From the NCBI GenBank assembly GCA_017459345.1, contig JAFUDC010000164.1, forward strand, positions 1-64,000: a stretch of DNA of 64,000 bases, written 5' to 3'. Made by a program: the position numbers and the translations under genes. Source of the DNA: Eubacterium sp. (lineage in GTDB: Bacteria; Bacillota; Clostridia; Lachnospirales; Lachnospiraceae). Shown piece by piece: positions 43,947 to 57,843 of this stretch; the first letter of the stretch is position 1, and the number at the start of each line of letters is the position of its first letter. The notes under the pieces are model-generated. The model ran no database searches. It worked only from the letters and a program-made list of their open reading frames with translations, and was not told the origin of the DNA.

Positions 43947-44090
43947 GCAACTCCCCAGGCAGGCTCGCAGCCAGAGGCTGCTCGCTATCGGGCAGTCGCC
44001 CGATAGCCTTGAAAGATAGAGCATATGTCTCAGCCCGTGCAAGCACGGCTGTTTCTCCTGCTCTATCTTTCATCCTGCCTGGCTCGTTGC
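43947..44090. ncRNA. Candidate structured RNA or palindromic element with a four-way junction
   Basis: A closing helix pairs GCAAC (43947-43951) with GTTGC (44086-44090) and CCAGGCAGG (43955-43963) with CCTGCCTGG (44074-44082). Inside are three helices: GCAGCC/GGCTGC at 43967-43981, a perfect 10-bp GCTATCGGGC/GCCCGATAGC with four-base loop at 43984-44007, and a perfect 13-bp GAAAGATAGAGCA/TGCTCTATCTTTC at 44011-44071 that encloses a further CAGCC..GTGC/GCAC..GGCTG hairpin. Strand is unknown because palindromes fold on both. No known RNA family is recognised; a mobile palindromic repeat is the main alternative. Confidence 0.5.
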
Positions 44091-44154
44091 TACGTTAAAT
44101 GGTTAATCCTGCCGGACAAATAGTGACAAAGAAATTGCGGCTTAAAGAAAAGTA

Positions 44155-44183
44155 TTGAATTGAAATGCTGATTTTGGTATGAT
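44155..44183 (+). promoter_or_regulatory. Promoter for the DUF1294-hydrolase gene
   Basis: TTGAAT, 17-base spacer, TATGAT, downstream of the structured element, so that element is not in this mRNA leader. Confidence 0.55.
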
Positions 44184-44249
44184 ATTAAAGATATTGTTTT
44201 TTCTGTAAATACTATTTTTTCCGAATAATGAAGGCTGTCTGGAGGCATT

Positions 44250-45185
44250 ATGAAAATTGTTACTGCAATACTTATTTATCTCATCCTCATTAATATTATC
44301 ACCTTTGCCAACTACAGGTCAGATAAGCTGAAGGCTAAGATGGGATGGGACCGTATCTCGGAACGGCGTCTTCTGCTGCTGGCAGTTTGCGGCGGCGGGG
44401 TCGGCGCTTTTGCCGGCATGCGAATCTATCATCACAAGACAAGGAAGTGGCGTTTCCGGATCCTGGTTCCCTTATGTATGATTATTCAGATTCTGCTTCT
44501 TATCTCCCTCCTCGGGTTTTCCCTCTATGTGTCTGATTACTATCATGCGGGCAGCGAAGCCGCTTCTGCTATGCAGTCAGATGAAGAGGTTCAGGTAAAG
44601 GAGATAAGAACCGGGACACTATTTGATGGTCCGGGAGAAGAGAATGCGGTTATATTCTATCCGGGTGCCAAAGTGGAGGAGACTGCTTATGCTCCTTTAT
44701 TGCATAGGGCTGCGGCAGACGGAACAGACTGTTTTCTGGTAAATATGCCGGGCCGTCTTGCATTTTTTGGGAAAAACAAAGCCAAAAGAATAATAAAAGA
44801 TAAAAACTACAGTTATGATAATTGGTATATGATGGGTCATTCACTGGGAGGTGCCATGGCGGCAGAATTCTGCGCGGATTCAAAAAACCTCGTGACTGGA
44901 TTGATTTTGCTGGCGGCTTATCCTGTAAAGAATCTGAAAAGTGAGTCTTTCAGGCTGCTTTCCATATACGGATCCGAAGATAAGGTTCTTAATATGAAGA
45001 ATTATGAGGAAAACAGGGAAAACTGGCCGGAAGATGCCCAGGAGTATATCATCGATGGAGGAAACCATGCAGGCTTTGGGGAATATGGTCCCCAGAATGG
45101 AGATGGATCAGCTTCCATCAGCCAGGAGGAGCAGCAAAGTCAAACTGCCAGGATGATACACCTGTTTATTACTAAAGACAGATAG
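44250..45185 (+). CDS. DUF1294 membrane domain fused to an alpha/beta hydrolase
   Basis: A 311-residue two-part protein. Residues 1-75 match the DUF1294 pattern: a first helix (IVTAILIYLILINIITFANY), then DKLKAKMGWDRISERRLLL and GGGVGAFAGMRIYHHKTRKWRF. A further membrane helix lies at about 77-98. The rest is an alpha/beta-hydrolase-type domain of the dienelactone-hydrolase-like group, with VIFYPGAKVEETAY, the nucleophile elbow GHSLGG, SIYGSEDKV for the acid region, and GGNHAGFG carrying the His. GGAGG precedes the ATG. Usually the two domains occur in separate proteins. Substrate unknown; the hydrolase domain is probably extracytoplasmic. Confidence 0.8.
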   Translation: MKIVTAILIYLILINIITFANYRSDKLKAKMGWDRISERRLLLLAVCGGGVGAFAGMRIYHHKTRKWRFRILVPLCMIIQILLLISLLGFSLYVSDYYHAGSEAASAMQSDEEVQVKEIRTGTLFDGPGEENAVIFYPGAKVEETAYAPLLHRAAADGTDCFLVNMPGRLAFFGKNKAKRIIKDKNYSYDNWYMMGHSLGGAMAAEFCADSKNLVTGLILLAAYPVKNLKSESFRLLSIYGSEDKVLNMKNYEENRENWPEDAQEYIIDGGNHAGFGEYGPQNGDGSASISQEEQQSQTARMIHLFITKDR

Positions 45186-45269
45186 CATAATCATGATAAG
45201 ATATGAGGTGTCGCATTACGACAAAACCATCCATGATATTTTTTTAAACTCTTATCATAATAGATATAT

Positions 45270-46028
45270 ATGAAACACAATACATTTAAACTCAGACAAA
45301 AAGATCATACCATCCGTGGCTGGATAAAAAAGCCGGATATTTCTGTTACCCGAAAGGTACCTCTGGTTATTCTCATGCACGGAGTAACCCTGGATAAAGA
45401 TAATATGCTCTTACAGCCCCTGACAGACGGTCTCCTGAAAAAGGAATTCGCAGTGCTGAGCTTTGATTTTTTCGCCCATGGTGACAGCGGCGGCCGCTGG
45501 CAGGAGATGTCTGTTGGCAGGTGGGTTAAGGATGCCGAGGAGGTGCTTGTCTATGCAGGTACTCTGCCATACATAACAGATATTTTTGTGGTCGGGCATT
45601 CTCAGGGCGGCCTGACTGCATCTATTGTGGCCGGCAGGCATCCTGATCTCATTAAGGCCATGGCATTATACGCACCTGCAGCAGTTATCGAAGATGTAGG
45701 GAAGGAAGGTAATTTGTTGGGAGTAAGGTTTAAGCCCAGGAACATACCGGAACGCGTGCCCTTTTTCTCCAGTTATCTGGGACGGGACTTTTTTCGATCA
45801 GCCCAGAAGCTTCATGTTTATGATACTGCTGTAGATTATAACGGACCGGTCTGCATCCTCCAGGGGACTTCCGACGAGATGGTGCCTCTGTCCTACGCAT
45901 GGAAATATCACTATATTTACAAAGGGTCTAAGCTCTATCTCTTTAAGGATGAGGATCATATGTTTCATAATCACAGAGAAGATGCGGCGGAAGTCGTGGT
46001 GGAGTTTTTGATGGAATGTGTTCAATGA
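45270..46028 (+). CDS. Alpha/beta hydrolase (serine esterase/acyltransferase-like)
   Basis: A 252-residue cytosolic hydrolase. The oxyanion region LVILMHGVTLDKDNMLLQP, nucleophile elbow VVGHSQGGLTASIVAG (Ser near residue 112), acid Asp in CILQGTSDEMVPLSYA and His in DEDHMFHNHRE are all visible. The pattern resembles cinnamoyl/feruloyl-esterase-like hydrolases of gut Firmicutes, but the substrate cannot be assigned. The ATG lacks a good ribosome site. It follows another hydrolase-domain gene on the same strand after 84 bases. Confidence 0.85.
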   Translation: MKHNTFKLRQKDHTIRGWIKKPDISVTRKVPLVILMHGVTLDKDNMLLQPLTDGLLKKEFAVLSFDFFAHGDSGGRWQEMSVGRWVKDAEEVLVYAGTLPYITDIFVVGHSQGGLTASIVAGRHPDLIKAMALYAPAAVIEDVGKEGNLLGVRFKPRNIPERVPFFSSYLGRDFFRSAQKLHVYDTAVDYNGPVCILQGTSDEMVPLSYAWKYHYIYKGSKLYLFKDEDHMFHNHREDAAEVVVEFLMECVQ

Positions 46029-46068
46029 TTATGAAAAAGAACAGCTTCTAAGAGATAACTGGATAAGA

Positions 46069-46102
46069 ATCCGCAGATTATATTATTGTTCTGCGGATTT
46101 TT
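46069..46102 (+). terminator. Terminator after the alpha/beta hydrolase gene
   Basis: A 9-bp stem ATCCGCAGA / TCTGCGGAT with a 12-base loop and a run of Ts. Confidence 0.8.
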
Positions 46103-46156
46103 GTCATATTAGAGTCACCTGCTTTATCAGACTTTATTCATAGATAGGAAAAACAT

Positions 46157-47038
46157 ATGCATCAGATAAAAGTTAACCATTTCAGTCTTGACCAGATCAT
46201 GAGATCAGGCCAGTGTTTCCGTATGAGACAAACAGATACATACAGATATGAAATCATCGCCGGCAGCAGGTACCTGATTGCAGACCAGCAGGGCAACCTG
46301 CTCACCTTACACTGCAATAAAGAAGAGATGGATTTCTGGTATGACTATTTTGATTTAAATACAGATTATGGGGTCTATATTGACAGGCTTAATCCCAATG
46401 ATTCCTATCTCATGAAGGCGGTGGCTGCTTCTGACGGGGTGCGTATTCTTAAGCAGGATCTGTGGGAGATGATTGTGACATTTCTGGTTTCCCAGCAGAA
46501 TCATATCAAGAGAATCAGGCGATGTATTGAGCTTTTATGTAACAAATATGGAGAACACATATCATTTACTAACGGAGGGATCTTTTGTCCTGAGCAAGCA
46601 AATGTAAAACCAGATAATAAACTAAAATGTGGCAGGCATATACCGGAAGTAAACGGATACCATACATTTCCCCGGCCGGAGGCCTTTGCAGGTCTTAATG
46701 AGGATGCCCTGCTGGATTGCAATCTGGGCTACCGCAGCAAATATGTCGTCAGATCGGCCAGACAGATTCTGGAAGGGGAGGTCAGCCTCGAAGAGATTGA
46801 GAAGCTGCCTTACAAGAAGGCAAAAGAAGAGCTGCTTAAGCTTTTTGGTGTGGGAGAGAAGGTGGCAGACTGTATCTGCCTCTTTGCCAGACATGACCTG
46901 GACGCTTTCCCTGTCGATACCCATATCCGCCAGGCTCTTGATCAGCATTATAAGCGGGGCTTCCCCAATCGCAGATATAAAGGCTTCAGGGGCGTGGTCC
47001 AGCAATACATATTCTATTATGAATTGATGGGGAGCTGA
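46157..47038 (+). CDS. ogg: 8-oxoguanine DNA glycosylase/AP lyase (OGG1-like)
   Basis: A 293-residue base-excision repair enzyme. The N-terminal OGG domain begins with SLDQIMRSGQCFR; LVSQQNHIKRIRR and NLGYRSKYVVRSA follow; the helix-hairpin-helix GVGEKVADCICLFA contains the catalytic Lys (residue 235) and FPVDTHI the catalytic Asp (254), positioned as in eukaryotic OGG1. The likely substrate is 8-oxoguanine opposite C, with beta-lyase activity. The alkylation glycosylase AlkA is the nearest alternative, but it lacks the catalytic Lys. Confidence 0.9.
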   Translation: MHQIKVNHFSLDQIMRSGQCFRMRQTDTYRYEIIAGSRYLIADQQGNLLTLHCNKEEMDFWYDYFDLNTDYGVYIDRLNPNDSYLMKAVAASDGVRILKQDLWEMIVTFLVSQQNHIKRIRRCIELLCNKYGEHISFTNGGIFCPEQANVKPDNKLKCGRHIPEVNGYHTFPRPEAFAGLNEDALLDCNLGYRSKYVVRSARQILEGEVSLEEIEKLPYKKAKEELLKLFGVGEKVADCICLFARHDLDAFPVDTHIRQALDQHYKRGFPNRRYKGFRGVVQQYIFYYELMGS

Positions 47039-47173
47039 TATTCTTCCATGATTTGCACATTTGCATATAATCTGATATGATGATATGAGAGCTGTTTAGA
47101 AGCGAATGTACAGGCCAAAAGCAGTGAAATCAGAGAATTCGGCAAAGATAGAAAATGAAATGGAGATACAGAA

Positions 47174-48142
47174 ATGAAATGGAATAAACTAACCATAGAG
47201 ACTACCACCCAGGCAGAGGACATGCTAAGCTGGGAGCTTTCGGAGATGGGAATTACGGGAGTGGAGATTGAAGACCATGTCCCTCTGACGGAGGAGGAGC
47301 GCAAGATCATGTATGTGGACCTCCTGCCGGATGAGATTGCCCCCGATGACGGGACGGCAAGGATATCCTGCTATGTGGATGAAAAAGAGGATCTTGACGC
47401 GGTGATTGCTAGGATTCAGGATAAGCTGGAGGAAATATCCGCATTTCTCCCTGTGGGCAGCAGAAAGATTACTCTTGGGACCACAGAGGAGGAGGACTGG
47501 ATCAACAACTGGAAGGTCTTCTTCAAGCCCTTCAGATTGGATGATAATATCGTGATCAAGCCCACCTGGGAGACACTTTCCGATCAGAAAGATGATGATA
47601 TTGTCATTGAGATCGACCCGGGAACCGCTTTCGGAAGCGGTTCCCATGAGACCACCAAGCTTTGTATCAGCCAGCTAAAGAAATATGTGACGCCCAAAAC
47701 CCAGCTTCTTGATGTGGGAACCGGCAGCGGAATCCTGTCCATCATCGGCTTAAAGCTGGGAGCTTCCTACGCCATGGCGACAGACATCGATCCCAACGCC
47801 ATCCGGGCTACCAATGAGAATTTTGAGATCAATGGGGTGGCTGAGGGACAGGCTCAGGTCCAGCGGGTTAATATCCTGGATCCGGAGGAGGCCGGAGCCT
47901 TCTATGAGGAGAATGCCGGGAAAAAATATGACATTGTGGTGGCGAATATTCTGGCTGATGTGATCATACCTCTTTCGGCAATTGTGACTCCTCTTCTAAA
48001 GGAGGATGGGGTCTTTATCACATCGGGAATTATCAATACCATGGAAGATGCGGTCAGGGAAGCTATGATTGAGAACCATTTTGAGATAATCGAGATTAAT
48101 CATATGAAGGACTGGGTGAGCATTACGGCGAAACCCAGGTAA
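47174..48142 (+). CDS. prmA: Ribosomal protein L11 methyltransferase
   Basis: Trimethylates ribosomal protein L11 with SAM. The 322-residue product has an N-terminal substrate-recognition domain (MKWNKLTIETTTQAEDMLSW to about residue 100) and a Rossmann methyltransferase domain with EIDPGTAFGSGSHETTKLC, LLDVGTGSGILSIIGLKLG and the NPPY-like VVANILADVIIPL. It stands before rsmE, the usual Firmicutes order after dnaJ, although here 4 kb of other sequence separates it from dnaJ. Confidence 0.94.
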   Translation: MKWNKLTIETTTQAEDMLSWELSEMGITGVEIEDHVPLTEEERKIMYVDLLPDEIAPDDGTARISCYVDEKEDLDAVIARIQDKLEEISAFLPVGSRKITLGTTEEEDWINNWKVFFKPFRLDDNIVIKPTWETLSDQKDDDIVIEIDPGTAFGSGSHETTKLCISQLKKYVTPKTQLLDVGTGSGILSIIGLKLGASYAMATDIDPNAIRATNENFEINGVAEGQAQVQRVNILDPEEAGAFYEENAGKKYDIVVANILADVIIPLSAIVTPLLKEDGVFITSGIINTMEDAVREAMIENHFEIIEINHMKDWVSITAKPR

Positions 48143-48259
48143 TGATTCTTAGTGGAAGCCTGTCAGAATACTATAACGTTTTTAATGTCTGACGAGGAAT
48201 TCTCGTGACTTTGTCATGGTATGAATGTTGATCTTTTATTGATATTTAAGGAGCAGCCT

Positions 48260-49012
48260 ATGTATCAGTTTTTCATCAAACCGGAGAATATCATCGATTC
48301 CGAGGTCGTACTCACAGATCTTACTGACATCAATCATATAAAAAATGTACTCCGCATGCGGATTGGGGAGAAGGTGACCTTCTGCTGCAGCGATCTGGAA
48401 AAGGACTATATTTGCAGTATCAACCAGCTGACAGATGAAGAAATCCGGGCCTCCATTGAGGACATCAACGGCATTTCGGGGGAGCTTCCGGTTCGGATTG
48501 TCCTCTTTCAGGGGCTGCCCAAATCAGACAAAATGGAACTGATCATCCAGAAGGCCGTGGAGCTGGGGGCGGCGGAAATTGTTCCGGTGGCCACAAAGCG
48601 CTGTGTGGTCAAACTGGATGAGAAGAAGGCTGTAAAGAAGGTGCTGCGCTGGAATGAGATTGCTAAAAGCGCCGCCAAACAATCAAAGAGGAGCCGGATC
48701 CCGGAGGTTAAGGATGTGATGACTTACGGGGAAGCCCTGCACTATGCGAGAGCCCTGTCTATGATCCTGATTCCCTATGAGGACGCAAAAGGAATCAGCC
48801 ATTCCCGAAAGCTGGTGGAATCCGTGAAGGGGAAAGAGAGCCTTGGTATCTTCATCGGCCCGGAGGGGGGCTTTGAGGAGAAGGAAGTGGATCAGGCCAG
48901 GGAGATAGGGGCACATCCCATCACCCTGGGTCACCGGATCCTGCGGACAGAGACTGCCGGGATGACCCTTCTGTCCATCCTCATGTTTATGCTGGACGAG
49001 GATGGAGAGTAA
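48260..49012 (+). CDS. rsmE: 16S rRNA (uracil-1498-N3)-methyltransferase
   Basis: A 250-residue SPOUT methyltransferase acting on 16S rRNA. N-terminal PUA-like domain (ITHI-type NHIKNVLRMRIGEKVTFC), then the knotted domain with LPKSDKMELIIQKAVELGAAEIVPV, IGPEGGFEEKEVDQA, and LGHRILRTETAGM. The ATG at 48260 is chosen for the AAGGAG site and because the upstream open frame adds residues unlike the family. Confidence 0.95.
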   Translation: MYQFFIKPENIIDSEVVLTDLTDINHIKNVLRMRIGEKVTFCCSDLEKDYICSINQLTDEEIRASIEDINGISGELPVRIVLFQGLPKSDKMELIIQKAVELGAAEIVPVATKRCVVKLDEKKAVKKVLRWNEIAKSAAKQSKRSRIPEVKDVMTYGEALHYARALSMILIPYEDAKGISHSRKLVESVKGKESLGIFIGPEGGFEEKEVDQAREIGAHPITLGHRILRTETAGMTLLSILMFMLDEDGE

Positions 49013-49077
49013 ACTGAAGCAGGCATGTTGGGAGTAAGCCTTGAATTGGCATGAGCTGCCGGGATAGGAGAGAAACA

Positions 49078-51870
49078 ATGGAAAAACACAACGAAGCAAA
49101 AGCTCTGGACCGCTACCTGTCCAGGACCGATGTCTGGGCCATGGCCTTCGGCTGCATGGTGGGCTGGGGAGTATTTGCCATGCCGGGCACCACATTTCTT
49201 CCTGTGGCGGGTCCCGCAGGAACCCTCATCGCCATGCTGATCGGCATGGTCATCATACTGATCATCGGCAATAACTTTTCCTACCTGATGAGCAGAACTT
49301 CCATCACAGGAGGGGTCTACTCCTACACCAAGGAGGCTTTCGGGAGAGACCATGCCTTTATCTCCTCCTGGTTTTTATGCCTGTCCTACCTGACCATCGT
49401 TTTTCTGAACGGAACCGCCCTCTTTATTGTAATCCGTATCCTCATGAGCAGGACTCTTTCAGCAAGCCCGGCCTATCATATAGCCGGAAACAGGATTTAT
49501 CTCGGAGAGACAGCAGCCTCTGTCCTGGTTCTTGCCGGTGTGGGCCTGGTCTTTGTGGCGGCCAAGCCCCTGCTGCAGAGATTACATACTATTCTTTCTC
49601 TGATCCTCTTTGCAGGTGTGGTCATCATCGCCGCCGCCTGCCTGCCCCGTGTTTACAGCAGCGGTGCCATAGCTGATTTCGGAACGAGAGGGTTCAACCC
49701 TGCCTATGCCGTCTTCAGTCTGGTCATCCTGGCCCCCTGGGCCTTTGTGGGCTTTGAGATTACCTCCTTTGACACAGCACATTTTAAGTTTGAGATTGGA
49801 AAAACCAGGCGGGTGCTGATTCTTGCCATCATTGCTACCGCCCTCGCCTATACCTCCATGGCCCTGATCAGCGTGGCTGCTGTGCCGGAGGGCTTTGCCT
49901 CCTGGCAGGATTATATCAGCCTTCTGGAAACCCAGGAAGGGGTTGCATCTGTGCCGACATTTTTCGCGGCAAGATCCATCCTGGGGACTCCAGGCCTGGT
50001 CATCATGACGGTCACAGCCATCGCTGCCATCCTTACCGGAATCATAGGGGGATACCGGGCCACCACCCGTGTCCTTTCTACCATGGCGGAGGACAGGATC
50101 CTGTCGGATAAGTTTTCCCAGACCAGCTACAGCATCCTTTTTATCATGATCCTCTCCATCATCCTGTCCTTTTTCGGGCGGAATACCCTCAACTGGTTTG
50201 TGGATCTGACCTCCTTTGGTGCCATTGTCGGTTTCGGATATAGCTCGGCGGCTGCATATAAGATCGCCCGAATGGAAAATGTAAAAAAGGTCAAGGTGAC
50301 CGGTATGATCGGAACCGGGATTTCTGTCCTTTTTGCTGTTGTTCAGCTGGTTCCCAGGCTGGCTGCCATGGAGGCCATGGGAAGCGAAGCCTTTCTCCTT
50401 CTGTCTCTCTGGTGCCTGCTGGGTTTTGTCTTCTACTGGAGAACCGTCAATAAAAGCACCCTTACAGAATATTCCGGCATGTCCACTTCAGGCGTCGTCC
50501 TCTTTGCCCTCCTTCTCTATTCTGCCATCATGTGGCTGGCCAAGAGACTGATGGCAGGGGAAACCATAAGCCAGATGAAAACAGATCTTGTCTGGGGGGG
50601 CATCCTTCTCATTGCCATAGTCTTTGTGGGTCTGGCGGTCATGCTCTATGTCCAGAATGTGGTAAGAAAGAAGCATGAGACGGTGGAGAGGGAGAAAATC
50701 CGCGCCGTGGAGAGCTCCCTGGCCAAGAGCCAGTTCCTCTTTAACATGTCCCATGATATACGGACGCCCATGAATGCCATCCTGGGTTACACCGGCCTGG
50801 CTTTAAAGGAAGAAGACCTGCCCACGGTTCACGGCTACCTGGAGAAGATTGAGGGATCCGGCAATCACCTTCTGGCCCTGATCAACGATATTCTGGAGAT
50901 GAGCCGGATTGAGAGCGGAAAGATCGAGTTGGAATTCCTTCCCACAGACCTCTGCGAAATCTTTGACGGAATGCATGACCTTTTCACTGAGCAGATGAAG
51001 CAGAAGAAGATTGACTTTCATGTATACACCGGTCAGGTAAAGAACCGCTATGTCTGGTGCGACAAGAAGAACCTCAACCGGGTTCTTTTGAATATCTTAA
51101 GCAACGCTTATAAATTTACTCCCGAAGAAGGAAATGTCAAGGCTTCCCTCTGGGAGGTTGCCAGCACAGAAGAGGGCTATGCCTCCTATGAGATGCGGAT
51201 TCAGGACAGCGGGATCGGCATGTCCAGGGAGTTCGCCGAGAAGATGTTCCATGCCTTTGAGCGGGAGAGAACCTCCACGGTCAGCGGTATCGAGGGAACC
51301 GGGCTGGGCCTTGCCATCACCAAGAGCATTGTGGACCTGATGGGGGGAACCATTGAAGTACTGACCGCCCCCGGCAGCGGGACGGAGATGATCATACGGC
51401 TTAAGCTAAGGCTGGCGGAAGAAAAGGATGTGAAAAAGGCAGATGTCCCGGATCGTCCTGTGGAGCAGACCATTGATTTCACACAAAAGCGTCTCCTGCT
51501 GGTGGAAGATAATTTCATCAATATGGAGATTGCCAAAGAGATTCTGACCCAGAAGGGCTTCCTCTTGGAGACGGCGGAAAACGGGCAGATTGCCCTCGAT
51601 ATGGTCCGCGAGGCCAGGGCCGGCTACTATGACCTGGTGCTCATGGACATCCAGATGCCTGTCATGGACGGCTACGAGGCCACCAGGGCCATCCGGGCCC
51701 TGTCAGATACGGCCAAGGCCGGGATACCCATCATTGCCATGACAGCCAATGCCTTCAAGGAAGATGAGGAGGCGGCTGCCCAGGCCGGCATGCAGGGTCA
51801 TATTGCCAAACCCATCAATATTGAAACTATGATGGGAACCATTAAGAAGGTACTGTCCGATTTCGATTGA
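49078..51870 (+). CDS. APC-family amino-acid permease fused to a hybrid histidine kinase with receiver
   Basis: A single 930-residue frame. Residues 1 to about 530 are an APC-superfamily permease: about 12 to 14 membrane segments, with the glycine-rich first helix AFGCMVGWGVFAMPGTTF, TGGVYSYTKEAFG, and ILAPWAFVGFEITSFDTAHF. After a last helix (VWGGILLIAIVFVGLAVMLYV) comes a short coiled linker, then HisKA with phospho-His 559 in FNMSHDIRTPMNAILGY, HATPase_c (NILSNAYKFTPEEG, DSGIGMSREF, GTGLGLAITKSIV), and a receiver at about 800-930 with phospho-Asp 857 in LVLMDIQMPVMDG and TKP-like IAKPIN. There is no DNA-binding or enzyme output domain. The start is ATG at 49078 behind AGGAGAG. A permease acting as sensor or transceptor is inferred. 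Confidence 0.9.
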   Translation: MEKHNEAKALDRYLSRTDVWAMAFGCMVGWGVFAMPGTTFLPVAGPAGTLIAMLIGMVIILIIGNNFSYLMSRTSITGGVYSYTKEAFGRDHAFISSWFLCLSYLTIVFLNGTALFIVIRILMSRTLSASPAYHIAGNRIYLGETAASVLVLAGVGLVFVAAKPLLQRLHTILSLILFAGVVIIAAACLPRVYSSGAIADFGTRGFNPAYAVFSLVILAPWAFVGFEITSFDTAHFKFEIGKTRRVLILAIIATALAYTSMALISVAAVPEGFASWQDYISLLETQEGVASVPTFFAARSILGTPGLVIMTVTAIAAILTGIIGGYRATTRVLSTMAEDRILSDKFSQTSYSILFIMILSIILSFFGRNTLNWFVDLTSFGAIVGFGYSSAAAYKIARMENVKKVKVTGMIGTGISVLFAVVQLVPRLAAMEAMGSEAFLLLSLWCLLGFVFYWRTVNKSTLTEYSGMSTSGVVLFALLLYSAIMWLAKRLMAGETISQMKTDLVWGGILLIAIVFVGLAVMLYVQNVVRKKHETVEREKIRAVESSLAKSQFLFNMSHDIRTPMNAILGYTGLALKEEDLPTVHGYLEKIEGSGNHLLALINDILEMSRIESGKIELEFLPTDLCEIFDGMHDLFTEQMKQKKIDFHVYTGQVKNRYVWCDKKNLNRVLLNILSNAYKFTPEEGNVKASLWEVASTEEGYASYEMRIQDSGIGMSREFAEKMFHAFERERTSTVSGIEGTGLGLAITKSIVDLMGGTIEVLTAPGSGTEMIIRLKLRLAEEKDVKKADVPDRPVEQTIDFTQKRLLLVEDNFINMEIAKEILTQKGFLLETAENGQIALDMVREARAGYYDLVLMDIQMPVMDGYEATRAIRALSDTAKAGIPIIAMTANAFKEDEEAAAQAGMQGHIAKPINIETMMGTIKKVLSDFD

Positions 51871-51940
51871 AAACTGACCGATACCGGATTTGGTATAAAG
51901 AATATATAAGGAACTCACACCATTCATGGAGGACGTTGCA

Positions 51941-53173
51941 ATGAAACAATTTTGGAAGGAAGCTTTTCTGAAAGCGATACCGGGATTCTTAAGTCTTACA
52001 TTGACTGTCATATTTTTCTTTCTTATTTTCCGTTATGAAGGAATCAGCAGAGGATTCTCTGCCATCATGAATATACTGAAGCCTTTTATCTACGGTGGTG
52101 TGATGGCATATTTGCTTAAGACACCCTACAACTGGATTGAGAAGTTTCTTCAGGCGAGAATCTCAAAGAAGAGGCAGGGGCTGGTCAGAGTATTGTCTGC
52201 GGCAATCGTTATGGTTCTGGCCTTTGTCATCATCTATCTTCTTTTATCCATGGTCATTCCTGCACTGGTAGACAGTATCGTCAGAATTATCAACAAGGTG
52301 CCGGCAGCAGTCACATCCTTTGAGAGCTGGGTGTATGCCAAGACCAATGGAAATGAGGTCATCAACAATTATATTGACCAGGGTGCCTCTGCCATACAGA
52401 CCAATGGCATGGGCTGGGTAAGAGACCATATTCTGCCCAGGCTGCAGAGCATGATGGGGGGAGTTGCCAGCACCTTCGGAACCATTCTGGGGACTCTTTA
52501 TAATGTGATCATCGGAATCATCATCTGCGTATATCTGCTCCTTAGCAAAAGTCTCTTTGCCCGCCAGGGCAAGATGGTGATCTATGGGATTTTCCCGAAA
52601 AACCTGGCGGAGAAAATCCTGGATGAGTTCACATTCATTGATAAGACCTTTGTGGGATTCTTTGCGGGCAAGATTCTGGACAGCACGGTGGTGGGACTGA
52701 TCTGCTATGTCTTCTGCCTGATTATGCATTTTACCATGGGTCTGCAGAATGCAGTCCTCATTGCGGTGATCGTAGGTGTGACCAACATTATCCCCTATTT
52801 CGGGCCCTATATCGGTGCCATTCCCTCCGCCCTGCTGATTCTCATGGATAGTCCGGTAAACTGCGTGATATTTATTATATTTATCCTCATACTGCAGCAG
52901 TTTGACGGAAATGTGCTGGGTCCCATGCTGCTCTCTGAGAGTGTGGGTCTCTCCGGCTTCTGGGTGCTTTTTTCCATCACCTTTTTCGGTGGTATTATGG
53001 GCTTTGCCGGAGTGCTGGTGGGCGTTCCTGTTTTTGCAGTAATCTATGACCTGATCCGGCGATTTATTTATTACTGTCTGGACAGGAGGCAGATAGATCC
53101 TGCTTATTTTACAGAGAAGGAGGTCATTCAGGAGATAGAAGCGGAAAAGGAGGGTATTCCATCGAAATCTTAA
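51941..53173 (+). CDS. AI-2E family transporter (PerM/YtvI-like)
   Basis: A 410-residue integral membrane protein with about eight helices and a soluble loop at about residues 95-190. The C-terminal block VGVTNIIPYFGPYIGAIPSALLILMDSP is the family signature, followed by LQQFDGNVLGPMLLSESVGLSGFWVL. Members include the autoinducer-2 exporter TqsA, Na+/H+ antiporters and sporulation protein YtvI; function here is not assignable. The ATG at 51941 is preferred because GGAGGA stands six bases before it. Confidence 0.9.
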   Translation: MKQFWKEAFLKAIPGFLSLTLTVIFFFLIFRYEGISRGFSAIMNILKPFIYGGVMAYLLKTPYNWIEKFLQARISKKRQGLVRVLSAAIVMVLAFVIIYLLLSMVIPALVDSIVRIINKVPAAVTSFESWVYAKTNGNEVINNYIDQGASAIQTNGMGWVRDHILPRLQSMMGGVASTFGTILGTLYNVIIGIIICVYLLLSKSLFARQGKMVIYGIFPKNLAEKILDEFTFIDKTFVGFFAGKILDSTVVGLICYVFCLIMHFTMGLQNAVLIAVIVGVTNIIPYFGPYIGAIPSALLILMDSPVNCVIFIIFILILQQFDGNVLGPMLLSESVGLSGFWVLFSITFFGGIMGFAGVLVGVPVFAVIYDLIRRFIYYCLDRRQIDPAYFTEKEVIQEIEAEKEGIPSKS

Positions 53174-53300
53174 CACAATTTTAATACCAGAAAATGTACT
53201 CTAACACAAATTTCACAAGAGAGATGATATGATACTATCAAGAACATCCACAGGGTAAATCCCCTATATCATATGGTATTTTTATAAGGAGGCCGCTGCT

Positions 53301-53948
53301 TTGAAATCGATACTGCTGATCGGACTTGGCAGATTTGGACGTCATATTGCCATGAAGCTGAATGATTTAAATCACGAGGTTCTGGCTGTTGACAGTGATG
53401 AAGAACGTGTTAACCGGGCTCTATCCTTTGTCACAAATGCCGTGATCGGTGACAGTACAGATAAAGAGTTCCTTTCCACTCTCGGTATACGTAATTTCGA
53501 TGCCTGTATCGTAGCGATCGGAGATGACTTCCAGAGCTCACTGGAGACTGCCTCCCTCTTAAAGGAACTGGGAGCAGACAAGGTCATTGCCAGGGCCAGC
53601 AGAGGTGTCCAGGAAAAATTCCTGCTGCGAAACGGGGCTGATGAGGTGGTTTATCCCGAAAAACAGCTGGCAGTCTGGACGGCAATCCGGTGTACATCTG
53701 AGCATATCCTGGATTACATAGAGCTGGACAGGGATTACTCGATCTTTGAGCTGGATGTTCCCGCCGGCTGGGCCGGTAAAAGCATCCTTGATCTCAATGT
53801 CCGGAACAGATACCACATCAACATTCTCGGACTTAGAGAGGAGGGGCAGCTGTTTATGGATATCAAACCGGATACGGTACTGCATGTAAACAGCTCCATT
53901 TTGGTTCTCGGCAAACAAAAGGATGTACATAAGTGTTTTCATCTTTAA
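53301..53948 (+). CDS. ktrA: TrkA/KtrA-type potassium channel regulatory subunit
   Basis: A 215-residue cytosolic gating ring subunit. RCK_N domain with GLGRFGRHIA nucleotide motif, the acidic DSDEERV end of beta-2 and VAIGDDFQSSLETA; RCK_C at about residues 135-215. It binds ATP/ADP or NAD(H) and controls a TrkH/KtrB channel, encoded about 0.9 kb downstream (54858). Start TTG at 53301 behind AAGGAGG. Single RCK unit length matches KtrA rather than the double-length E. coli TrkA. Confidence 0.93.
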   Translation: MKSILLIGLGRFGRHIAMKLNDLNHEVLAVDSDEERVNRALSFVTNAVIGDSTDKEFLSTLGIRNFDACIVAIGDDFQSSLETASLLKELGADKVIARASRGVQEKFLLRNGADEVVYPEKQLAVWTAIRCTSEHILDYIELDRDYSIFELDVPAGWAGKSILDLNVRNRYHINILGLREEGQLFMDIKPDTVLHVNSSILVLGKQKDVHKCFHL

Positions 53949-53995
53949 AGAGTACATGAAAAAAATGCTTTACAAAGAAGGGCAGGGTGATTAAG

Positions 53996-54094
53996 ATGAT
54001 GTTAATCCTGGTAATAGCCTACATTATAGCGGTAATGTCTTTTGGATATCATATCGCCGGAGAGATAGACCGGTTTAAGAAGGGACATAGATAG
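53996..54094 (+). CDS. 32-residue single-span membrane peptide in the potassium locus
   Basis: A short open frame beginning with two ATGs (53996, 53999) behind AGGGTGA and ending at a TAG. The peptide has one hydrophobic helix (MMLILVIAYIIAVMSFGY) and a charged tail (EIDRFKKGHR), so a positive-inside C-terminus is expected. It sits between the KtrA-like gene and the KdpE-like regulator, followed by a terminator-like hairpin. Position and size recall KdpF, a peptide of about 29 residues in the Kdp pump, but no sequence relation is claimed. Too short to be judged by composition alone. Confidence 0.55.
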   Translation: MMLILVIAYIIAVMSFGYHIAGEIDRFKKGHR

Positions 54095-54097
54095 AAA

Positions 54098-54123
54098 AGG
54101 ATTCGGCCAGGCCGGATCCTTTT
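54098..54123 (+). terminator. Terminator or attenuator inside the potassium locus
   Basis: AGGAT / ATCCT and CGGCC / GGCCG stems separated by single mismatches with a one-base apical gap (effective loop slightly larger), followed by three Ts and CC. It separates the gate and peptide genes from the two-component and channel genes and may reduce readthrough. Confidence 0.65.
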
Positions 54124-54146
54124 CCTCTGAAGGGAGGTCAGGTCTT

Positions 54147-54842
54147 ATGAATAAATTGCTTATATTGGTTGTGGAGGATGATATTCCTGTTAAGAATCTG
54201 ATTACCATCACTTTAAAATCAAATGGATACAGGTATCTGACTGCAGCGGACGGGGAGACTGCCGTCATGGAGACAGCCTCCCGCAATCCGGATATTATGC
54301 TGCTGGATCTGGGCCTCCCGGATATGGATGGGGTGGAGGTGATCAGACGTATCCGCAGCTGGTCAAATATACCTGTCATTGTGATCAGTGCCAGAAGTGA
54401 GGATGAGGATAAAATCGAAGCTCTGGATGCCGGTGCAGATGATTACCTTACCAAACCCTTTTCTGTGGAAGAATTGCTGGCCAGGATCAGGGTGACAAAA
54501 CGGCGCCTGGACCAGATGGCCGGACATTCTGCTGCCTCACCCGTTTATGAGAACGGCAGCCTTGTGATTGACTATGTTTCAGGCTGTGTTTATCTTGGCG
54601 GAAAAGAGATGCATCTGACTCCCATAGAGTATAAATTGCTCTGCCTCCTGGCCCGAAACACGGGCAAAGTCCTCACTCATAAATACATTCTTCAGAACGT
54701 CTGGGGAAGCAGTCTTGAAAATGATGTGGGTTCCCTGCGTGTCTTCATGGCAACATTGAGAAAAAAGCTTGAATCACTGCCGGATTCTCCCCAGTATATA
54801 CAGACTCATGTGGGAATCGGTTACAGGATGCTTAAGATATAA
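54147..54842 (+). CDS. KdpE-like OmpR-family response regulator
   Basis: A 231-residue regulator. Receiver: acidic pair EDD, phospho-Asp in IMLLDLGLPDMDGVEV, VISARSEDEDKIEALDAGADDYLTKPFS. Winged helix: HLTPIEYKLLCLLARNTGKVLTH and GSLRVFMATLRKKLE with YIQTHVGIGYRML, a combination close to KdpE. The partner kinase is at 56263, separated from it by the TrkH-type channel gene. GGGAGG precedes the ATG. It probably regulates the neighbouring uptake genes in response to potassium or osmotic state; this is inferred from the pairing. Confidence 0.9.
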   Translation: MNKLLILVVEDDIPVKNLITITLKSNGYRYLTAADGETAVMETASRNPDIMLLDLGLPDMDGVEVIRRIRSWSNIPVIVISARSEDEDKIEALDAGADDYLTKPFSVEELLARIRVTKRRLDQMAGHSAASPVYENGSLVIDYVSGCVYLGGKEMHLTPIEYKLLCLLARNTGKVLTHKYILQNVWGSSLENDVGSLRVFMATLRKKLESLPDSPQYIQTHVGIGYRMLKI

Positions 54843-54857
54843 TCATATGGTGAGTAT

Positions 54858-56186
54858 ATGAAACAAATCATAAAACGGATGACCACACCACAAATCATTA
54901 TTTTCGGCTTCGCAGGATTGATCCTCCTGGGGAGCCTGCTTTTGATGCTGCCGGTCTCTGCAAGGAGCGGCAGCGGAGCTTCCTTTACTGATGCTCTTTT
55001 TACAGCCACATCTGCAGTATGTGTGACCGGACTGGTTGTTCATGACACGGCTTCCTTCTGGAGCCTCCCGGGTCAGATCATCATACTGGGTCTGATTCAG
55101 ACAGGAGGAATGGGAGTGGTCACCCTTGCCCTGGCAATCTATACTTTATCGGGAAAAAGGATTGGCCTCAAACAGCGTACTGCCATGCAGGAAGCAATCT
55201 CAGCTCCCAATATCGGAGGAATCATCCGTCTGAGCCGGTTTGTGATAAAAATGATCCTCATTATAGAAATGCTAGGCACGATTCTGCTGGCGACGATCTT
55301 CTGCAGGGATTTTGGCCTGATGAAAGGCTTATGGTATGCCTTATTCCACTCGGTGTCCGCTTTCTGTAATGCGGGATTTGATCTCATGGGCCTCCGGGCT
55401 CCCTATTCATCCCTGACCGGATATGCCGGTCACCCTGTGATCAATCTGACCATATCTTCCCTGATTATCATAGGGGGTATAGGATTTATGACCTGGGATG
55501 ATGTGAGAAAATACGGTATTCACATAAGACGCTATCATATGCAAAGCAAGGTAGTGCTTGTCACCAGCTTTTTTCTGATCAGTCTGCCTATGGTATATTT
55601 CTATTATTATGAATGTCAGGCACTCCCGGGAAAAGAGCGGGTCTGGGCTGCATTTTTTCAGTCTGTGACAGCCAGAACCGCCGGTTTTAACACAGTCGAC
55701 TTAAGTTCTTTTGGAGATACCGGTCTTATGGTACTTATGGCACTGATGCTGGTAGGAGGGTCTCCGGGCTCAACCGCAGGAGGAATGAAAACAACAACCC
55801 TTGCAGTGATGATCGCTACCATGGTTACGGTCTTTTTCCGCAAAGATCAGACCCATCTGTTCAGGAGAAGAATTCCGGAAGAAGCAGTGAGAAACGCTCT
55901 GGCCATCTTTATGCTCTATCTCATTCTCTTTCTGACAGGAGCCCTGCTCATATGTCATCTGGATGGCATCCCACTGGTCGCCAGTCTTTTTGAGACAGCC
56001 TCCGCCCTGGGAACGGTCGGCCTGACAACAGGGATTACGGAAGGTCTGTCCCTTTATTCCCGTTTTATCCTGATCGTCCTGATGTATACCGGAAGAGTAG
56101 GAGGACTGACCTTGATATTTTCTGCAGTATCTTCAAAAAAGGCCGGTTTCTCCAGGCTGCCTGAAGAAAAAATCACCGTGGGATGA
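54858..56186 (+). CDS. ktrB: TrkH/KtrB-type potassium channel subunit
   Basis: A 442-residue membrane protein with four M1-P-M2 repeats. Selectivity-filter Gly segments can be seen: TSAVCVTGLVVHD, SAFCNAGFDLMG, TARTAGFNTVDLS and ALGTVGLTTGITEG. GGSPGSTAGGMKTTT lies in the gating helix of the third repeat. It would partner the KtrA-like ring at 53301. It follows the response-regulator gene by 15 bases. Substrate K+ (or Na+-coupled K+) is family knowledge. Confidence 0.93.
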   Translation: MKQIIKRMTTPQIIIFGFAGLILLGSLLLMLPVSARSGSGASFTDALFTATSAVCVTGLVVHDTASFWSLPGQIIILGLIQTGGMGVVTLALAIYTLSGKRIGLKQRTAMQEAISAPNIGGIIRLSRFVIKMILIIEMLGTILLATIFCRDFGLMKGLWYALFHSVSAFCNAGFDLMGLRAPYSSLTGYAGHPVINLTISSLIIIGGIGFMTWDDVRKYGIHIRRYHMQSKVVLVTSFFLISLPMVYFYYYECQALPGKERVWAAFFQSVTARTAGFNTVDLSSFGDTGLMVLMALMLVGGSPGSTAGGMKTTTLAVMIATMVTVFFRKDQTHLFRRRIPEEAVRNALAIFMLYLILFLTGALLICHLDGIPLVASLFETASALGTVGLTTGITEGLSLYSRFILIVLMYTGRVGGLTLIFSAVSSKKAGFSRLPEEKITVG

Positions 56187-56262
56187 TTATTAAGGACCAT
56201 ATATATGTGGACTGACTGTTGAGGAGCATATAGATATGAGTTGTTTCTTTAGGAGCATACAT

Positions 56263-57840
56263 ATGAGACACATAAGAAATGATGCTAAGTCCCAGCCGGC
56301 AAAGATCCGGCCGGACCGGATCCGGGCTGCCTGGTACGATTTTCTGAAAAGCATTTTTTTCCTGGCTGCAGCCACCGGGCTTGGACTCGTATTTTACAGC
56401 TTTCATTTTACCAATGCCAATATTATCATGGTTTACATTCTCGGTGCGCTTCTGACATCCATTGCCACATCCCACCAGATATACAGCCTGGTCTCGTCCA
56501 TAGCCAGTGTATTTGTATATAATTATCTTTTTACCGAACCAAGATATACCATGCTGGCTCATGAGACAGGGTATCCGGTCACATTTATCGTCATGTTTCT
56601 TACCGCCTATATCACCGGATCCTTCTCCCTGCGTTATAAGAAGCAGGCCGGACAGTCGGCAAAGATTGCCCACAGGACCAGTATCCTTTTTGATACCAGT
56701 CAGCTTCTGTCCAAGGCAGATGGAAGGCAGGAGATTATGGATACCGCAGCCAGGCAGATAATAAAGCTGTTAAATCGGGATATCATATTGTATGAATATA
56801 CAGATGGAGTATTATCCGAACCCCGCCTGTTTCAGATTGATAATAAAGATACTGATATGAGTATTCAGGAAGAAAATGGGCAGGAGGAATCCATAGGGCA
56901 GGAACCGGGAGAGTCTATAGAGGATTATATTGATTATAACAAACTGATTGCCGGATACCATTATTATAAGCTGCATATCAATGACCGGATCTATGGACTT
57001 GTTGGCATCAATGCCAAGGATGAGCCCCTGGATGAATCAGAGCATGAGATGCTGCTGTCCATTCTGGGAGAATGCGCGCTGGCCCTGGAGAATGAAAAAA
57101 ATGCACGGGAAAAGGAAGCTGCTGCCATTCTGGCAGAAAATGAACAGCTGAGGGCAAATCTTCTGCGTACCATCTCCCATGATCTGCGTACCCCGCTTAC
57201 GACAATATCCGGAAATGCCAGCAACCTCCTCAGCAACGGTGAGATATTTACCGAGGAGGTCCGCCGGCAGATTTACCAGGATATCTACAATGATTCCATG
57301 TGGCTGTATGATCTGGTGGAAAATCTTCTGTATTCTACCAGGATTGAGGAAGGAAGAATGACCCTGCATGCTTCCTCAGAATTACTGGGAGATATCATCG
57401 ATGAAGCCATTGCACATTTTGACCGGAAGAGTAATAAGCACATTATCACTGCAGATTATGAGGATGAACTGATACTGGTCCGGGCAGATGCCAGACTGCT
57501 GGTTCAGGTGGTCATCAATATCATCGATAATGCAGTTAAGTATACTCCGGAGGGAACGGCTATCCATATCAGCACAAAAAAGGGCGGAGATATGGCTGAG
57601 GTCCTTATCGCCGATACAGGCCAGGGGATTCCCGATGAAGAGAAAGCCAAAGTCTTTGACAAGTTCTATCATGGAGCCGGCCAGATTGCGGACAGCCGGA
57701 GGAGCATCGGGCTTGGCCTGTATCTTTGTAAATCCATTGTGGAAGCCCACAAAGGTGTCATAAGCGTATCTGACAATGAACCCACCGGAGCGGTGTTTCG
57801 TTTTACCATACCGTTGCAGGAGGTCAGCTGCTCTGATTAA
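56263..57840 (+). CDS. KdpD-like sensor kinase lacking the KdpD/USP N-terminal domains
   Basis: A 525-residue kinase. It begins directly with the four-helix DUF4118 membrane domain of KdpD (residues 25-130; FYSFHFTNANIIMVYILGALLTS, VYNYLFTEPRYTM), then a GAF-like region, HisKA with phospho-His in LRTISHDLRTPLTT, and HATPase_c (NIIDNAVKYT, DTGQGIPDEEK, SIGLGLYLCKSIVEAH). The long N-terminal KdpD sensor and universal-stress-protein domains of E. coli KdpD (about 900 residues) are absent. Two in-frame ATGs (56236, 56263) each have an AGGAGCATA site in near-duplicate surroundings; I prefer the second. Partner of the regulator at 54147. Confidence 0.9.
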   Translation: MRHIRNDAKSQPAKIRPDRIRAAWYDFLKSIFFLAAATGLGLVFYSFHFTNANIIMVYILGALLTSIATSHQIYSLVSSIASVFVYNYLFTEPRYTMLAHETGYPVTFIVMFLTAYITGSFSLRYKKQAGQSAKIAHRTSILFDTSQLLSKADGRQEIMDTAARQIIKLLNRDIILYEYTDGVLSEPRLFQIDNKDTDMSIQEENGQEESIGQEPGESIEDYIDYNKLIAGYHYYKLHINDRIYGLVGINAKDEPLDESEHEMLLSILGECALALENEKNAREKEAAAILAENEQLRANLLRTISHDLRTPLTTISGNASNLLSNGEIFTEEVRRQIYQDIYNDSMWLYDLVENLLYSTRIEEGRMTLHASSELLGDIIDEAIAHFDRKSNKHIITADYEDELILVRADARLLVQVVINIIDNAVKYTPEGTAIHISTKKGGDMAEVLIADTGQGIPDEEKAKVFDKFYHGAGQIADSRRSIGLGLYLCKSIVEAHKGVISVSDNEPTGAVFRFTIPLQEVSCSD

Positions 57841-57843
57841 AGC

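Follow-up and report, generated by a model that had tools for sequence, protein, structure and literature searches.

Transporter folds joined to histidine kinases have been described in several bacterial systems. CbrA, CrbS and RpuS carry a LeuT-fold transporter N-terminal to a nutrient-linked histidine kinase, and CrbS is called a hybrid in the available parts of this literature (PMC13022988, PMC7918813, PMC5715377, PMC9100948); CbrA is termed a rare transceptor in the available part of PMC13022988. Ks-Amt5 likewise uses a transporter fold as receptor, with the histidine kinase fused directly and no HAMP domain (PMC5764959, in the part available). The 5TMR/S-component-fold sensor kinases have a membrane fold common to transporters and receptors and many outputs, including GGDEF and EAL; under the strict definition used there, the 2024 paper presents the S-component fold as the first such case in prokaryotes (PMC11109136, in the part available).

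Here we describe a gene from a 64,000-nucleotide stretch of Eubacterium sp. DNA (contig JAFUDC010000164.1, positions 1 to 64,000; the window) that joins a permease of a different family to a hybrid histidine kinase:

49078..51870, + strand: whole gene, APC permease plus hybrid histidine kinase, 930 aa (translation, Pfam)
49066..49072, + strand: Shine-Dalgarno-like AGGAGAG for ATG 49078 (read in the sequence)
49093..50481, + strand: LeuT-fold APC permease core, residues 6-468
49162..49170, + strand: TM1 break motif G29-W30-G31 (invariant in 51/51 rows; helix break in the model)
49735..49758, + strand: TM6 break motif PWAFVGFE, residues 220-227 (alignment of 51 rows)
50485..50667, + strand: TM13-TM14 hairpin, residues 470-530 (model helices 470-492 and 497-577; alignment)
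50566..50808, + strand: one continuous predicted helix, residues 497-577, comprising TM14, signalling helix and first DHp helix with H559 (DSSP of model mb25d50cb26b6)
50722..50919, + strand: HisKA, residues 549-614, with phospho-acceptor H559 at 50752-50754 (Pfam)
51061..51411, + strand: HATPase_c, residues 662-778 (Pfam)
51496..51843, + strand: receiver (Response_reg), residues 807-922, with D857 at 51646-51648 (Pfam)

Translation of 49078-51870(+) gives 930 residues and a stop without interruption, as the preliminary description had it; the in-frame ATG 49051 is a less likely start because the Shine-Dalgarno-like motif lies just 5' of ATG 49078. The neighbours by Pfam are PrmA, an RsmE-type RNA methyltransferase and an AI-2E transporter, in agreement with the earlier placing of rsmE upstream and an AI-2E exporter downstream. 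Within 44000-58000 no Rfam RNA reached the gathering score, and a search for plasmid carriage returned no match at E<=1e-30.

The N-terminal part belongs to the APC family both by sequence domain (AA_permease_2 at residues 15-426, 54.1 bits against a cut-off of 27.0; AA_permease, 27.8 against a curated cut-off of 24.6) and by a predicted LeuT fold with broken TM1 and TM6. The AlphaFold2 model contains the permease core and two further helices, consistent with the complete APC-type transporter of about 12-14 helices first proposed. HisKA, HATPase_c and Response_reg all score above the Pfam cut-offs, with His 559 and Asp 857 as previously assigned. In an alignment of 51 hand-chosen rows the position of H559 is His in 50/51, N676 is kept in 50/51 and G712 and G714 in 49/51 (N and G boxes), and D857 is Asp in 44/51, the remaining 7 being gaps, so that the phospho-acceptor His, the nucleotide-binding boxes and the receiver Asp of a hybrid histidine kinase are all in place.

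The preliminary description took such fusions to be unusual, an expectation that did not survive the searches. The permease, HisKA, HATPase_c and Response_reg are found together in 120/120 listed best matches of 1256 (one being the window protein itself), at 70-100% identity over 97-100% of the query, and all 120 have the GWG motif. For one subfamily, the permease part is matched at E<=1e-20 by 2038 proteins of a length set by a 989-residue query, and 117 of the 120 listed among these have the full kinase architecture. The architecture recurs in separately assembled genomes and in bacteria of two phyla, with relatives in named Butyrivibrio strains; it is common in databases and patchy among genomes. 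This patchiness and the identity of about 64% to Fibrobacter copies may reflect gene transfer. Database entries that carry a name are called, for instance, 'amino acid permease' or 'ATP-binding response regulator'. Among the best-ranked literature matches, judged by title or abstract start and with most subscription journals outside the scope, none described a fusion of an APC permease with a kinase or cyclase, and the permease-kinase is undescribed within that scope only.

The kinase-receiver end of the fusion was correctly recognised, but it is one of several output types: other proteins carry GGDEF, HD-GYP or GGDEF-REC-GGDEF-EAL ends, or no output, on the same 14-helix module. In a tree of 52 hand-chosen sequences the fused and 14-helix rows form a supported group, from which five shorter free permeases stand apart.

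We consider, with a probability of roughly 0.5, that this single membrane protein is an amino-acid transceptor feeding a His-Asp-His-Asp relay, the steps of which we infer from sequence, to a predicted c-di-GMP phosphodiesterase. An amino-acid ligand would bind the LeuT-fold permease and shift it; the shift would turn or slide the H559 helix via TM14, without HAMP or PAS domains; and phosphate would pass from H559 to D857 of the same chain, then to a small HPt protein and on to the receiver of a REC-GGDEF-EAL protein, which would act at the end of the relay as a c-di-GMP phosphodiesterase. Sister proteins have this permease module fused straight to GGDEF or HD-GYP, so that c-di-GMP would be the recurring end point.

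That the permease senses an amino acid, as the preliminary description proposed, is likely in view of the invariant binding-site motifs and the predicted LeuT fold. Residues of the putative binding site in TM1, TM6 and TM7 are invariant, and the TM1 and TM6 breaks contain many of the invariant residues of the 51-row alignment. Compared with the PDB by plain sequence, the permease gave no match at E 1e-3; its PDB relatives, with the GkApcT alignment, were reached by family profile only. In that alignment W30 corresponds to GkApcT Thr43, W221 (kept in 51/51 rows) to Phe231, and E227 (E in 48/51 rows, D in 3/51) to Asp237, the roles of the GkApcT residues aligned to W221 and E227 being those given in the available part of PMC5803215. 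W30 and Y258 are kept in the free permease rows too, whilst Trp at position 221 occurs in only 2/5 free permeases.

None of the five free relatives, which are 451-478 residues long, has the TM13-TM14 hairpin, an additional stretch that is hydrophobic by sequence. In the model about 20 residues separate TM14 from HisKA, residues 531-549 form one helix only, and TM14 is predicted to run as a single helix into the phospho-acceptor helix; the continuity of helix 497-577 is only inferred, because the block pLDDT is just 62-80 over 531-580. A second model, of an APC-GGDEF relative, has block pLDDT of 40-57 from about 440 to 580, covering TM13-TM14 and the linker, and for that reason no conclusion was built on it.

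Evidence for the later steps comes from related loci surveyed by tblastn, with length floors of 50 aa for HPt and 350 aa for REC-GGDEF-EAL and with HPt queries taken partly from the same loci. In 20/30 loci the permease-kinase has an HPt gene within 5 kb, and both HPt and REC-GGDEF-EAL genes are near in 19/30. These loci are not independent: among those with partners, one Ruminococcus-titled genus accounts for 4 and Fibrobacter for 14, and the two Fibrobacter types have a common HPt-regulator pair (REC-GGDEF-EAL 73-75%, HPt 55-69% identical), so that the second is not a fully separate case. L038, L039 and L044 were dropped as duplicates of L088, L087 and L141, L077 was counted apart, and L042, further loci of the same listing, L112 (a broken copy in G629 with REC-GGDEF-EAL upstream) and L113 (an N-terminally short copy in G678) stand outside the count. 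The HPt matches in L134 and L139 are partial (78 and 75 aa). Neither partner gene was found in the window or in L088, L069, L071, L072, L078 and L084, the flanks being short at two of these (just 1.5 kb upstream in L069, 1.2 kb downstream in L088). The earlier statement that no cognate regulator is adjacent is thus correct for the window and for six further loci, but not for the 19 with both genes nearby.

The REC-GGDEF-EAL proteins have EAL motifs and a degenerate first GGDEF. The receiver Asp and QG motif of the C108 protein, missed by the motif pattern, were read by eye in slightly variant wording, as was the QG motif of L080; L082 has EGL instead of EAL and was missed by three EAL patterns, making its phosphodiesterase activity doubtful on sequence grounds. 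Outside the count, an EAL protein matches over 446 aa at 29% in L083, a GGDEF locus.

Of the two HPt matches in the window's genome, one is stand-alone and the other lies within a 1220-residue frame. The stand-alone HPt shares 43-53% identity with six operonic HPts and 25% and 39% with two more; it and the REC-GGDEF-EAL homologue are on contigs other than that of the permease-kinase, and it is a candidate for the unlinked phosphotransfer protein to which the signal had been proposed to pass. The REC-GGDEF-EAL gene adjoins another hybrid kinase, which it may serve instead.

A tentative alternative, overlapping with the transceptor relay, is that the amino acid is both carried and signalled, as histidine is by CbrA. 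The transporter domain of CbrA transports histidine (PMC7918813, in the part available), and the TM6 acid E227, Y258 and gate W221 are kept here. Set against this, Ks-Amt5 lost transport as a sensor (available part of PMC5764959), and the position of GkApcT TM5 Lys191 is Leu177 in the window protein and Leu or Met across the aligned rows, a substitution that argues against transport according to the available part of PMC5803215. None of 20 aligned rows (19 of them distinct), among which are free permeases, has Lys there, and a transport-dead permease, suggested by Leu177, was accordingly not concluded.

It is less probable, though arguable, that the protein is an amino-acid receptor kinase whose HPt serves all hybrid kinases of the cell as a common hub, the REC-GGDEF-EAL protein being one of several targets. 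Four more long frames of the window's genome (C176, C108, C163, C161) match kinase and receiver domains, and its one stand-alone HPt is unlinked; the Blautia MAG G331 has 14 kinase matches, with HPt matches on other contigs; and HPt also occurs close to other kinases (in G332 C26, and with matches below the cut-off in G331 C21 and C8). Fibrobacter clusters have three or four hybrid kinases, the permease-kinase included, around one HPt, and with up to three further hybrid kinases near the permease-kinase the HPt may be shared. In G615 and G702, however, the sole close hybrid kinase and the sole HPt match are adjacent, by the REC-GGDEF-EAL gene, and the direct fusions to GGDEF or HD-GYP also speak against a hub.

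That the protein is primarily a transporter, with uptake set by phosphorylation state through its kinase and receiver, is improbable: the permease fold and binding motifs are wholly kept, but relatives swap outputs for c-di-GMP enzymes, the TM5 Lys required for GkApcT transport is missing, and HPt genes are linked in 20/30 loci. A worn-out permease anchoring a kinase that senses another cue is more improbable still, given the invariant residues in the TM1 and TM6 breaks, W30 and Y258 shared with free rows, and a permease module retained while outputs change. An assembly join, frameshift or annotation artefact between permease and kinase can be dismissed, because the same open frame occurs in separate assemblies and in two phyla.

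Beyond this locus, we give even odds to a wider scenario in which a permease lineage gained TM13-TM14 once, had its outer lid closed by two Trp, turned into a plug-in receptor for amino acids and was afterwards coupled several times to outputs (hybrid kinase with HPt and EAL, GGDEF, HD-GYP), giving a large unnamed transceptor class in anaerobes, including several from the rumen, that couples amino-acid supply to c-di-GMP level. Here the family of AdiC, LAT1 and CAT1 would appear as a modular sensor. If correct, the protein would be a clean test case for LeuT-fold movement driving a kinase helix without a linker domain, and would provide a permease input for c-di-GMP signalling; a 2022 review on such inputs (PMC8846402) nowhere uses the word 'permease' in its main text. 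The reading also puts forward a relay with named components for a hybrid kinase that lacks neighbouring partners.

In comparison with CbrA, CrbS and RpuS, the transporter here is of APC type (AA_permease_2) rather than SLC5, the window protein having two APC models and no SSS (SLC5) or PAS match at E 1e-3; TM14 is predicted to continue directly as the DHp helix; GGDEF or HD-GYP outputs occur in relatives; and the genes linked to it in related loci encode HPt and REC-GGDEF-EAL. Membership of the CbrA/SLC5-STAC group was rejected on transporter type and the missing PAS; the Pfam scan listed no STAC domain, although Pfam may hold no STAC model. Ks-Amt5 is an Amt-fold trimer with a simple kinase, its regulator not identified in the available part of PMC5764959, whereas the present protein, which has no Amt match in Pfam, combines an APC fold with a hybrid kinase, and its relatives in many loci have HPt and REC-GGDEF-EAL genes close by. 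The 5TMR/S-component-fold kinases use the S-component fold of ECF transporters, and LeuT takes its place here. GkApcT, AdiC, ApcT and SLC7 share the fold and the TM1/TM6 binding frame with the permease-kinase, which differs from them in its signalling domains and from GkApcT in having Trp for Thr43 and Leu or Met for Lys191.

Translation of the stretch between rsmE and the AI-2E exporter gave the uninterrupted frame of 930 codons that the preliminary description had reported, with an AGGAGAG site directly 5' of its ATG at 49078. The gene and the neighbours discussed here are:

46157-47035, upstream: an ordinary OGG_N-type 8-oxoguanine DNA glycosylase
49078-51870 (+): the permease kinase (APC permease, TM13-TM14 hairpin, HisKA with H559, HATPase_c, receiver with D857)
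53301-57840, downstream: a K+-uptake set of a TrkA-N protein, a response regulator with Trans_reg_C, TrkH and a DUF4118 histidine kinase, which we take to be KdpD-like

The K+-uptake set comes with a kinase and a regulator of its own and probably has nothing to do with the permease kinase. In the latter, AA_permease_2, HisKA, HATPase_c and Response_reg each score over the Pfam cut-off, and a protein search found the same four domains in all 120 matches listed (the best 120 of 1256, window protein included), at 70-100% identity to the window protein. These 120 sequences carry the TM1 GWG and TM6 motifs throughout, the H-box in 118 and the receiver Asp motif in 116; such matches bear source names including 'amino acid permease', 'Signal transduction histidine kinase' and 'ATP-binding response regulator'. 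Since architecture and motifs recur across the listed matches, the permease-kinase junction is real, and an assembly join or frameshift at this boundary, raised earlier as a possible objection, is ruled out. The finding is better than originally claimed, although the single protein, then regarded as unusual, is an ordinary member of its own family.

When the architecture was sought in related genomes as proposed, matches across both permease and kinase turned up in 3 of the 24 genomes from the window's genus (its own included), and in a fourth genome the match is truncated at a contig end. The permease part alone matched 1 of 295 genomes of the order sample at E<=1e-90 (the window's own), 6 of 291 of the class sample at 1e-60 (own included), 7 of 125 within the genus to which a Ruminococcus-titled MAG belongs (1e-80; two copies broken or short) and, again at 1e-80, 14 of 150 within the phylum that includes a Fibrobacter-titled MAG. 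The Fibrobacter MAG permeases are 64% identical to that of the window, which suggests gene transfer across phyla. The permease part of another subfamily retrieved 2038 proteins at E<=1e-20, and 117 of the 120 listed contain all four domains; several named Butyrivibrio strains and some Selenomonadaceae are among them. One locus (L112, genome G629) holds a broken permease-kinase copy with a REC-GGDEF-EAL gene upstream, and another (L113, G678) an N-terminally shortened copy, both with intact copies in sister genomes.

The permease module was compared with GkApcT, residue correspondence being taken by hand from a printed alignment: Thr43, Phe231, Asp237, Tyr268 and Lys191 correspond to W30, W221, E227, Y258 and L177. 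In PMC5803215, Thr43 and Phe231 form the outer lid of GkApcT, the backbone of TM1 and TM6 clamps the amino acid, and changing Lys191 to Ala abolishes transport while binding is kept. Across 51 aligned rows W30 and W221 are invariant, position 227 is Glu in 48 and Asp in 3, and position 177 is Leu in 47 and Met in 4. A 20-row alignment (19 distinct) that takes in fusions to other outputs and five free permeases, relatives lacking both the signalling part and TM13-TM14, has W30 and Y258 in every row and Lys at position 177 in none, whereas W221 occurs in 15 of 15 fused or 14-helix rows and in 2 of 5 free permeases, the remaining three having Tyr, Tyr and Phe. By these residue counts, the amino-acid binding frame is kept in the module, the whole subfamily lacks the TM5 lysine, and a lid of two tryptophans sets the signalling branch apart.

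In other genomes the same permease and hairpin are fused to hybrid kinases carrying either one or two receivers, a longer hybrid kinase with two receivers (L077), a lone GGDEF domain, an HD-GYP domain (L085) or GGDEF-REC-GGDEF-EAL (L076, and likewise L075, cut by a contig end). In a 52-row, midpoint-rooted tree, a supported branch (99/93) parts 47 fused or 14-helix rows from the five free rows, two of which are long-branched, and the output label changes five times for kinase and four times for GGDEF; this branch and the repeated changes make it likely that outputs were exchanged on one receptor lineage. One GGDEF protein (P0172) has, by eye, a kinase-type permease over its first about 400 residues and GGDEF-type last helices, possibly an exchange inside the permease. 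In a length-limited search, 75 of the 120 matches listed are 520-585 residues long and have neither kinase nor GGDEF motif. These are a mixture, since the complete sequences of P0151, P0160 and P0203 retain TM13-TM14 and then end, while P0137 resembles a kinase version broken after TM14. The former and others (about 555 residues, 57-60% identical, short tail) group beside kinase rows in the tree, so the kinase was likely lost in them; such proteins may now serve as decoys, as partners or as transporters.

The earlier statement that no cognate regulator is adjacent holds for the window, but not for most of the related loci counted here. At a Ruminococcus-titled locus, genes for a REC-GGDEF-EAL protein (a predicted c-di-GMP phosphodiesterase) and for a 111-residue phosphotransfer protein (HPt) lie near the kinase gene in one direction. 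Among 30 permease-hybrid kinase loci, searched by tblastn with 5 kb allowed between midpoints, an HPt lies nearby in 20 and a REC-GGDEF-EAL gene in 19; the loci are related to one another, and we estimate three to five separate cases. Three of ten misses (L111, L140, L068) have a contig edge near the kinase gene. Neither partner was found by tblastn in the available flanks of the window, L088 (1.2 kb downstream), L069 (1.5 kb upstream), L071, L072, L078 and L084; L070, which belongs to the window's genus and sits on a 6-kb contig, has an HPt but no REC-GGDEF-EAL gene nearby. Both genes are near one of nine permease-GGDEF or HD-GYP loci (L082), REC-GGDEF-EAL is in the same chain in two of nine, and tblastn found neither near the free permeases (0 of 5 loci). 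Ten Fibrobacter-phylum loci with a 36%-identical kinase, fetched after the linkage was noticed, have both partners in nine, the tenth meeting a contig end; they are a partly independent test, because the two Fibrobacter types themselves share a conserved HPt-regulator pair (REC-GGDEF-EAL 73-75%, HPt 55-69%). In Fibrobacter clusters (L086 6996-18850, L131-L139) a single HPt and a single REC-GGDEF-EAL gene accompany up to four hybrid kinases, possibly a many-to-one relay.

As a control, 11 genomes gave one to four HPt matches and one to fourteen close hybrid-kinase matches each, kinases weaker than E 1e-35 escaping the count. G615 and G702 have one of each, adjoining (the G702 HPt being below the Pfam cut-off), and in G437 both HPt matches adjoin permease-fused genes. 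The pairing is not exclusive, since other kinases, too, have an HPt close by (G332 C26; G331 C21 and C8, below cut-off).

The window's own genome has two HPt matches, one stand-alone (contig C133; 43-53% identical to six operonic HPts, 25% and 39% to two from G437) and one within a 1220-residue frame (C161). A REC-GGDEF-EAL homologue (50% identity) lies on C108 beside another hybrid kinase, and a second on C27 is cut by the contig end. The C108 protein has EAL motifs, the receiver Asp, a degenerate first GGDEF and a second, terminal GGDEF domain whose motif reads REDEF, and is predicted to degrade c-di-GMP. All proposed relay parts are therefore present, but unlinked to the permease kinase gene.

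Domains, motifs and linkage in other genomes are observed directly; the signalling steps that we infer would make up a plausible relay for the family, in which an amino acid or amine would bind between TM1 and TM6 and shift the permease, the TM14-DHp helix would pass this shift to H559, and phosphate would move from H559 by way of D857 and the HPt to the receiver of the predicted phosphodiesterase. Since sister proteins fuse the permease directly to GGDEF or HD-GYP, c-di-GMP would be the common theme.

In the literature searched, no paper was found that describes fusion of a kinase or cyclase to an APC permease. By Pfam, the window protein is of the APC family, with neither the SLC5 and PAS domains of CbrA nor the Amt domain of Ks-Amt5, and membership of either group was rejected. 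The comparison also takes in CrbS and RpuS (further literature: PMC8846402, PMC5847659), and the protein is unlike S-component receptors (PMC11109136). It resembles CbrA (PMC13022988, PMC7918813) and Ks-Amt5 (PMC5764959) in that a transporter fold would read a nutrient for a kinase, and within the searches made its family is a new, large variant of this transporter-receptor kind.
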